DNA of 54,934 nucleotides, from NCBI GenBank assembly GCA_017624275.1, contig JAGANG010000077.1, positions 1-54,934 of the forward strand. Reading direction: 5' to 3'. The notes beneath the pieces are model-generated. The model was given only the letters and a program-made list of their open reading frames with translations, did not search any database and was not told the origin of the DNA. Position numbers and translations under genes: made by a program. This DNA is from Spirochaetales bacterium (GTDB lineage: Bacteria; Spirochaetota; GWE2-31-10). Of the stretch, positions 9,574-24,823 are shown piece after piece. Position 1 is the first letter of the stretch, and the number at the start of each line of letters is the position of its first letter.

Positions 9574-10566
9574 TTAGTCTATGACTTGCAGTTCCAATTC
9601 CAAATCTATACCGTTTTTCTCTTTTACTCGCTTTTGAACTTCATTAATTATTCGTTTTATATCAATTGCCTTGGCATTTTTTCTGTTAATGATAAAATTT
9701 GCATGTTTTTCATAAATCTGAGCTCCGCCGCTCGAAAAGCCTTTCAATCCGGCACCGTCTATCAATTTCCCGGCAGGAATCCCGACAGTATAATCATTTT
9801 TGAACACACAGCCGGCACTCGGATATGCAAATTGTCCTTTTTTCTCACGGTCAATGTAATTTTTTTTAGTCTGCTCACGAATTGCTTTCTTCGGTGCCGG
9901 CATAAGTGATACCACCACATCTACTATACAATACTCCGGATGTTCCATAAAAATACTGTGTTTATAGCCATAATCCAAATCTGCACCGGAAAGCACTTTA
10001 TATTGCAACGCTCCGTCTACAATACTTACTTCCTTTATAATCTGTGAAAATTCTCCGCCGTAACAACGAGCATTCATAAATGCAGCACCGCCAATGGTTC
10101 CCGGAAGTCCGCCGGCAAATTCCAGTCCGGACAAACCTTGCTTAGTTGCAAACTTTACGGCATCTTTTATAGTCACGCCGGCACCGAAACGCACTAATGC
10201 GGCAAGCTTCTCCTGCTCTTTTAATCTACAGCCGCCGTAAGCTGCAATTGAACAATTTTCACGATGTTCCGACGAACAGCCGCCGTTTTTTGTCAATGTA
10301 CAAGCCGGCGGAAGTATCTGAGCTGGTCTTTCTATTTCAATTTTATTCCAATTTAACGTAGAAATTATCATACGATTTATAATGCCGTCACCGAACAACA
10401 CATTAGCGCCGCCGCCGAGCAACATCGGCTTCACGCCGTTTCTTAAACAAAAGCTTATCGCTTCAAGATATTCACTGTGATCTTTAGGCTGACAAAAATA
10501 CTTTGCTTCACCGCCAATCTTAAAAGTTGTCCATTTATCCAGCTTAACATTTTCTTTTATCTTCAT
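9574..10566 (-). CDS. murB: UDP-N-acetylmuramate dehydrogenase (MurB) with Cys-rich insertion
   Basis: MurB is the FAD enzyme that reduces UDP-GlcNAc-enolpyruvate to UDP-MurNAc in peptidoglycan synthesis. Family blocks are T-F-K-I-G-G (14-19), L-L-G-G-G-A-N-V-L (49-57), L-P-G-T-I-G-G-A-A-F-M-N, and Y-P-S-A-G-C-V-F-K-N, where the usual proton-donor Ser is Cys. Between the FAD loop and F-G-A-G-V-T there is an insertion (about residues 80-120) with Cys at exactly 89, 97, 105 and 113; see findings. At 330 residues it is about 30 longer than compact relatives. The start ATG overlaps the end of the upstream small gene (TAAAATG), with AAGGA as ribosome site. Confidence 0.93.
   Translation of the reverse strand: MKIKENVKLDKWTTFKIGGEAKYFCQPKDHSEYLEAISFCLRNGVKPMLLGGGANVLFGDGIINRMIISTLNWNKIEIERPAQILPPACTLTKNGGCSSEHRENCSIAAYGGCRLKEQEKLAALVRFGAGVTIKDAVKFATKQGLSGLEFAGGLPGTIGGAAFMNARCYGGEFSQIIKEVSIVDGALQYKVLSGADLDYGYKHSIFMEHPEYCIVDVVVSLMPAPKKAIREQTKKNYIDREKKGQFAYPSAGCVFKNDYTVGIPAGKLIDGAGLKGFSSGGAQIYEKHANFIINRKNAKAIDIKRIINEVQKRVKEKNGIDLELELQVID
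10207..10302 (-). repeat. Four-unit 24-bp quasi-repeat inside murB
   Basis: The minus strand encodes four consecutive octapeptides, each starting with Cys (TGT): units 1 and 3 end in GGC GGC, and the string acggcggctgt recurs exactly 48 nt apart. It looks like an old tandem expansion that stayed in frame. Confidence 0.6.
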
Positions 10567-10567
10567 T

Positions 10568-11044
10568 TTATTTTCCTTGTGCCTTCTTTAATCTCTCAAG
10601 CTCTTCCATAGTAATTTGCTCAATTCTTTCCAATGTATGTTCCGAATAACCTTGTCTTTGAAACAAATCCAAAACCGAGTTTATAATATAAAGTTCCATT
10701 TCAACGGATGACAATATGGACTTTTTCATTTTAAAAATTAGAGACTTTACATATTCTTCGGCTTCTTCAAGAACTACAGAATCTAAATCTTCATCTGAAA
10801 TCAGATTCTCCAGTAACATAGCTTGGGCTACATGTTCTTCAGACAATGAAGAATCACCTTCACGGTAATTGTTTTCATTTCTATAAATAGCTTCTCTGCG
10901 TTTTTTTAAAATATTTTTATATTCTTTTATAAAAGGTTCATCACTGGACTTACGACTTTCCACTTTTGCTTGTAATTTTTTATTTTCTTCCGGCGTACAT
11001 TGTTCAAGAATTTTCTTGATTCGCTCTTCCAGAGATTTTTCCAT
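10568..11044 (-). CDS. Hypothetical helical protein upstream of murB
   Basis: This 158-residue, strongly charged protein has no signal peptide and no membrane segment. It is mostly helical: a Lys/Glu-rich N-terminal half with K-K-R-R-E-A, an acidic middle (S-D-E-D-L-D-S-V-V-L-E-E-A-E-E) and a C-terminal amphipathic helix with R-I-E-Q-I-T-M-E-E-L-E-R-L. I do not recognise the family. The start ATG has AAGGGAACTT upstream. It is directly coupled to murB, which suggests co-expression with cell-wall synthesis, but its function cannot be read from the sequence. Confidence 0.7.
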   Translation of the reverse strand: MEKSLEERIKKILEQCTPEENKKLQAKVESRKSSDEPFIKEYKNILKKRREAIYRNENNYREGDSSLSEEHVAQAMLLENLISDEDLDSVVLEEAEEYVKSLIFKMKKSILSSVEMELYIINSVLDLFQRQGYSEHTLERIEQITMEELERLKKAQGK

Positions 11045-18688: not shown

Positions 18689-19147
18689 TTACTTCCATTC
18701 CAGATAACGAGCACATTTTTCTTCTTGATAAAAAGCTAATTTATCACTCAAACTTAAAGAATCTTCTTCAGAATCTAATCCGGGACAACGTTTTTTCTCC
18801 AAAACCCATTCAGCATCATCTTCTACAAGAAACGGCCAGAAAGGGAACGCCCTGCATTGTAACGGGCGAGCATTATAAATAGAACAGCCTTCTTTTTCCC
18901 AAAAAATACAATCATAATTCTTTTTCTCTTTCAGTCCTACATACACCTTAGAATCTCGATATATTTCACGACAATATTTTCGAATAAATTCTTCACGTGA
19001 AATATTTAGTAATGCAGCTGCATTATCTGCATCTTTTTCAGTAAGCATTACCATCCCCGGATCAATACGGCAACATTTAGAACATCTTTGACATGAGAAT
19101 TTTCTTTTTGATAATTTTTCTATAATTTGAGATTCAGAGAGAGCCAC
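18689..19147 (-). CDS. YkgJ-type Cys-cluster protein
   Basis: From the GTG at 19147, which has TGAGG eight bases upstream, the protein has 152 residues; the frame farther upstream runs through the terminator and into tRNA-Tyr. The N-terminus has C-Q-R-C-S-K-C-C-R and later parts have Y-D-C-I-F, E-G-C-S-I-Y and P-L-Q-C-R-A-F-P, the arrangement of the YkgJ/UPF0153 family, thought to bind zinc or an iron-sulfur centre. Function in the cell is not established. It is cytoplasmic and precedes the C11 peptidase by about 40 nt on the same strand, so the two may be co-transcribed. Confidence 0.87.
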   Translation of the reverse strand: MALSESQIIEKLSKRKFSCQRCSKCCRIDPGMVMLTEKDADNAAALLNISREEFIRKYCREIYRDSKVYVGLKEKKNYDCIFWEKEGCSIYNARPLQCRAFPFWPFLVEDDAEWVLEKKRCPGLDSEEDSLSLSDKLAFYQEEKCARYLEWK

Positions 19148-24367: not shown

Positions 24368-24823
24368 ATGAAAGATTTTCTTTTACATCTTTTTGCTTTT
24401 GTATTTATACTTTGCAGTTATTCTTGTGCTTGTATGTGGTCTGAATCACCTCAATGTTTGACGGTAACACTTGATAAATATGAAGCTAAACCCGGTGATG
24501 AAATTACTATAGACGGCGGAGAATATCCTATTGCTGATTGTATGGAGATTGATACCTATATAAAAGGAGATAATAAAAGATATTCTCTTGATTTTGTTCG
24601 GGACATAGATTCATCAAAAAGTATTTGGAAAATACCGGAAAAAGCAAGTAGCGGGAAAATTGAATTTTATATGGAAATGATCGTGGAATATGGATGTGAC
24701 GGGAAACCTATTTCTTTTAGAAGAGATAATATATCGGAACTTTATGATGGAGAAAATTCTTGTACAACAAGAAAATTTTATGGTTCAGGAGAATCTGATA
24801 AACCGCTTACTATTACACAGTAA
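24368..24823 (+). CDS. Small Cys-rich secreted lipoprotein, Ig-like, unknown family
   Basis: The 151-residue protein has a hydrophobic signal peptide and C-S-Y-S-C-A-C (Cys 17, 21, 23), where S-Y-S-C is a possible lipobox. The mature part begins V-T-L-D-K-Y-E-A-K-P-G-D-E-I-T-I, the look of a bacterial Ig-like beta sandwich, and carries more Cys (C-M-E-I, Y-G-C-D-G, N-S-C-T-T), suggesting disulfides. I do not recognise the family. The ribosome site AAGGAGCTTATT precedes ATG. A broken copy lies at 13782 and a frameshifted relative follows at 24899, so this is a small duplicating family, perhaps surface-exposed. Confidence 0.75.
   Translation: MKDFLLHLFAFVFILCSYSCACMWSESPQCLTVTLDKYEAKPGDEITIDGGEYPIADCMEIDTYIKGDNKRYSLDFVRDIDSSKSIWKIPEKASSGKIEFYMEMIVEYGCDGKPISFRRDNISELYDGENSCTTRKFYGSGESDKPLTITQ

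Follow-up and report, generated by a model that had tools for sequence, protein, structure and literature searches.

The MurB described here, from an uncultured spirochaete genus, is a newly seen version of a known enzyme. Its FAD-binding domain carries an insert that runs about 42 residues beyond the typical loop and holds four cysteines, each exactly eight residues from the last. The data support the insertion, a duplication within it and constraint on its sequence. The best explanation, to which we would give a probability of about 40%, is a genus-level insert, duplicated and constrained, that houses a putative structural Cys4 metal site. We favour the metal site as the mechanism, but weakly, both the bound metal and its role being things that we infer. 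The stretch of DNA that was analysed, referred to here as the window, spans 54,934 nucleotides of a Spirochaetales genome (contig JAGANG010000077.1 of assembly GCA_017624275.1).

An ordinary enzyme with an added loop

The host of the insert is an otherwise ordinary type II-like MurB, and its gene is the sole copy found, a profile search of the genome with PF02873 (MurB_C) giving one match. The protein exceeds the curated Pfam cut-offs for MurB_C and FAD_binding_4 alike. Its fold matches those of solved MurBs; the top match in a Foldseek search of the PDB was the Staphylococcus aureus enzyme (1hsk; E 5.7e-31, TM 0.82/0.89). With this structure and those from Listeria monocytogenes (3tx1 and 4pyt), all type II-like MurBs, the window protein shares the whole fold, FAD-binding and C-terminal domains included, and the Arg167, Glu325 and Ser/Cys253 positions. 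It differs from them in the added residues with their four cysteines and in having Cys, not Ser, as the residue at the proton-donor position. The catalytic Arg167 is present in 85 of the 91 spirochaete MurBs that we aligned. The gene neighbourhood (folP-like, cdaA and ybbR) is conventional. Just upstream of murB lies a 158-aa open reading frame without a Pfam match (10568–11044, minus strand). Acidic reading frames occupy the equivalent position in two genomes of the same family (248 aa in G002, locus L004; 243 aa in G003, locus L006), and together the three may represent a conserved spirochaete gene.

Table 1. Positions of murB, its insert and individual residues in the window
Feature	Position	Strand	Remarks
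murB, UDP-N-acetylenolpyruvoylglucosamine reductase	9574..10566	-	330 aa; MurB_C 2.1e-30, FAD_binding_4 2.9e-15 (Pfam)
Insert region, residues 80-123, β-hairpin between strands 76-80 and 123-128	10198..10329	-	Alignment; AlphaFold2 strands
Cys89 codon TGT	10300..10302	-	TGT also in G001
Cys97 codon TGT	10276..10278	-	TGT also in G001
Cys105 codon TGT	10252..10254	-	TGT also in G001
Cys113 codon TGT	10228..10230	-	TGT also in G001
Repeat unit 1, residues 89-104, CTLTKNGGCSSEHREN	10255..10302	-	28/48 bases identical to unit 2; direct repeat, 48-nt spacing
Repeat unit 2, residues 105-120, CSIAAYGGCRLKEQEK	10207..10254	-	28/48 bases identical to unit 1; direct repeat, 48-nt spacing
Cys253, proton-donor (Ser in AGS) position, outside insert	9808..9810	-	Cys 19/90, Ser 71/90
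Glu325, catalytic Glu position	9592..9594	-	Glu in 90/90 MurBs covering position

The first-pass annotation had read the element as an insertion, with cysteines in the pattern C-x7-C-x7-C-x7-C. The murB codons bear this out, as does the alignment, in which the element follows the glycine motif for FAD binding and precedes the GAG block. The hairpin that received it normally has nine residues. Over all six frames of the window the pattern occurs once. A calculation at 1.4% Cys expects it about 0.0006 times among the window's open reading frames, a naive figure since half of the regularity is explained by a duplication. Four cysteines in 25 residues compare with that 1.4% for the window background. 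Pfam and PDB sequence searches with the insert returned no match at E 10, which includes any known metal-binding family or structure, and protein and DNA searches of the genome found no second copy. The literature searched held no relevant account of a MurB with a Cys insert or with metal. Elsewhere in the window are a small Cys-rich protein (18689–19054, minus strand; 5% Cys) that matches PF03692, the CxxCxxCC putative zinc-/iron-chelating domain, and a 151-aa reading frame (24368–24823, plus strand) that matches nothing in Pfam and is 4.6% Cys.

AlphaFold2 models the body of MurB at pLDDT above 90 and the insert at about 50–67. A second run, centred on the protein of a congener (G001), agrees, with the insert again at about 50–67, and both models place a weak bridge between residues 91 and 97 and a short turn at 102–104, at low confidence. 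Two rows only of the underlying alignment cover the insert, so the pLDDT should be low whether or not metal holds the fold together, and by itself it has no weight for or against metal.

Another cysteine of note lies outside the insert. It had been reported as a replacement for the Ser of the AGS motif, and so it is, at residue 253. The same exchange is found in 18 further spirochaete MurBs (n = 90 with any residue at this position), the rest of the window organism's family among them. We read Cys253 as an ordinary variant unrelated to the insert and as the putative proton donor, either Ser or Cys apparently being accepted at this position.

Probable duplication, and distribution

The interval 10207–10302 corresponds exactly to residues 89–120, or two units of 48 nt, and the recurring ACGGCGGCTGT has two copies in the window, both here and 48 nt apart. 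Tandem duplication, as proposed at first reading, remains the probable origin; the octad as its unit does not. The octads CTLTKNGG, CSSEHREN, CSIAAYGG and CRLKEQEK alternate as A-B-A-B (the first resembles the third, the second resembles the fourth), which sets the repeat unit at 16 residues rather than eight. The two units share 58% DNA identity, and with the Cys codons removed 22 of 42 bases still agree (permutation p ~6e-4). No other pair in murB reaches this level of similarity, which is attained at 5e-5 of window positions. Two 16-residue units with this identity make a single 48-nt tandem duplication their likely source. Such an event would explain the step from Cys89 to Cys105 and that from Cys97 to Cys113. 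The inner spacing also equals half of the repeat unit, an extra coincidence of about 1 in 15.

Our sample comprised 91 MurBs of the phylum, collected by genome searches. Nine genomes belong to the class, which makes for thin sampling near the window, and one congener was compared. That congener, G001 (MAG HAN109), is the only other genome with the four-Cys insert, which is absent from the remaining 89 aligned MurBs. Its MurB is 85% identical to that of the window and equal in length, with zero indels. The one close relative, G001, neither lacks the cysteines nor varies them: it has all four. It also carries the insert at 81% DNA identity, which rules out an assembly artefact. Loops are short in G002 and G003, and likewise in those members of the order with a MurB that spans the region.

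Longer loops do occur at this hairpin (median 9 residues over the 91 MurBs): 13 of the 91 have at least 20 residues, unrelated inserts included. In families that we read from their sequences as Treponema-like, the loop has 24–53 residues of unrelated sequence without the Cys pattern. The site therefore readily accepts insertion, and the position of the four-Cys insert is not special. Six such MurBs (L041, L042, L043, L045, L051 and L059) share the insertion point and a similar or shorter length with the window protein; they differ in being mostly rich in Ala, Gly, Ser, Gln and Asp, in having no regular Cys and in varying in length within one pair. One of them, L041 (murB of G199), has a 53-residue insert with an internal repeat, GDSGESADFAAG and GDSGKSGDFAAG, so that this hairpin has taken up a repeat-bearing insert independently in another MurB. 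In G015 (L122), from another spirochaete genus, the hairpin loop has two extra cysteines seven residues apart (CAALPEQAC), and its congener G027 (L123) has none of them, so loop cysteines vary freely there. Clade-specific surface inserts are known in this enzyme from the Mycobacterium tuberculosis complex, where a four-residue insert is a conserved signature indel (PMC6306742); that one is far shorter and lies elsewhere, in alignment region 249–298 of the M. tuberculosis protein.

Selection on the insert

Between the window and G001, pN and pS are 0.099 and 0.61 for the insert (residues 80–123) and 0.084 and 0.67 for the MurB core. The resulting pN/pS ratios, 0.16 for the insert (bootstrap 0.06–0.30) and 0.125 for the core (0.09–0.17), are indistinguishable, and both are far from neutral. 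Since the insert and the core cannot be told apart by this ratio, with synonymous sites near saturation, the protein sequence of the insert is under purifying selection, and its high pS indicates that the constraint acts on the protein, not on the DNA or RNA. Loop and core change in a ratio of 0.99 in this pair. In other MurB pairs, a short loop at this hairpin changes at a median of about 1.7 times the rate of the core, and in the most divergent long-insert Treponema pair the loop changes at 1.95 times the core rate, with indels. The loops of two closer long-insert Treponema pairs are constrained too, without the Cys pattern. In the central insert 26 of 34 residues are unchanged, at which level the four cysteines would all be kept by chance with a probability of about 0.3; with one pair to compare, the constraint is shown for the insert as a whole.

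What the four cysteines may do

The explanation that we favour would begin with an insertion into a tolerant β-hairpin of the FAD-binding domain, which became a surface element of the genus. A 48-nt tandem duplication would predate the split of the two known species, and purifying selection now keeps the result. The insert would fold as a small two-fold repeat, each unit contributing a C-x7-C pair whose second Cys is preceded by a G-G-C turn. In the reducing cytoplasm the four cysteines would, as thiolates, together hold a single structural metal ion, with zinc the likeliest, that stabilises the loop or its contact and takes no part in catalysis. We lean this way because of the four cysteines within 25 residues of a cytoplasmic protein, the G-G-C turns and a constraint at the level of an essential enzyme. 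A zinc or iron-sulphur site would call for four cysteines shared by the homologues that have the insert; these number two, and both keep all four. We also counted in favour of our explanation that the loop cysteines of G015 are missing from its congener. Against a metal site stand the small sample of two insert sequences, the low pLDDT, the lack of a metal-binding match in Pfam or the PDB and the constrained Treponema loops without the Cys pattern. C-x7-C spacing is also uncommon as a zinc-site signature.

Ranking close behind, and a serious possibility, is a tolerated loop, disordered or loosely packed, in which the four cysteines simply came with the duplication of a 16-mer that contained Cys and have no joint role. 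The 13 MurBs with long loops here, the internally repetitive insert of L041, the low pLDDT in both models and the confinement of the Cys version to two species are all in keeping with it. It sits less easily with an insert as constrained as the core, free of indels although synonymous sites are near saturation: drift predicts about 60 nonsynonymous differences, and 10 are observed.

Constraint of this kind might fall on an ordered surface through which MurB touches a partner enzyme or forms a dimer, with non-Cys residues such as those of ILPPACTLTKNGGC under constraint and the cysteines as buried thiols. The longest stretch unchanged between the window and G001, AQILPPACTLTKNGGCSS, is largely non-Cys; the conventional neighbourhood, however, points to no partner, and we consider this reading unlikely. 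Rather less probable is an extension of the metal site, in which a mini-domain born of the duplicated C-x7-C binds zinc or an iron-sulphur cluster and thereby links metal or redox state to the synthesis of peptidoglycan precursors in a single spirochaete genus. We give slightly less credence still to a redox switch, whereby oxidative stress would join the cysteines in disulphide pairs and alter MurB activity or stability. A flavoenzyme with four cysteines in a surface loop invites the idea, but the bacterial cytoplasm is normally reducing, there is no CxxC motif and the literature searched on MurB yielded no such switch.

An in-frame mobile or palindromic coding element, akin to those of Rickettsia, has a very small chance of being right: each copy does have short inverted repeats (13 nt in G001, 11 nt in the window genome), but these differ between the two species, and the folding is not strongly better than that of shuffled sequence (z -1.3 and -2.3). 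The 13-nt repeat, with a 7-nt loop, lies at 1770–1802 of L003 in the murB insert of G001 and is absent from the window copy. Protein and DNA searches of the genome, with their single copy of the insert, speak strongly against a dispersed element. An RNA-level element was rejected, given that synonymous sites in the insert vary as freely as those elsewhere and that the two species fold differently. Likenesses to EGF-like C..NGGC and twin-CX9C motifs, which are extracytoplasmic or mitochondrial, were dropped for want of a sequence match.

To our knowledge no metal site is known in MurB, and the literature searched described none. What the insert would show is how duplication within a loop of an essential enzyme can give rise to four cysteines at regular spacing, an element then retained by selection. 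Should that element bind metal, MurB would have no known precedent for it.
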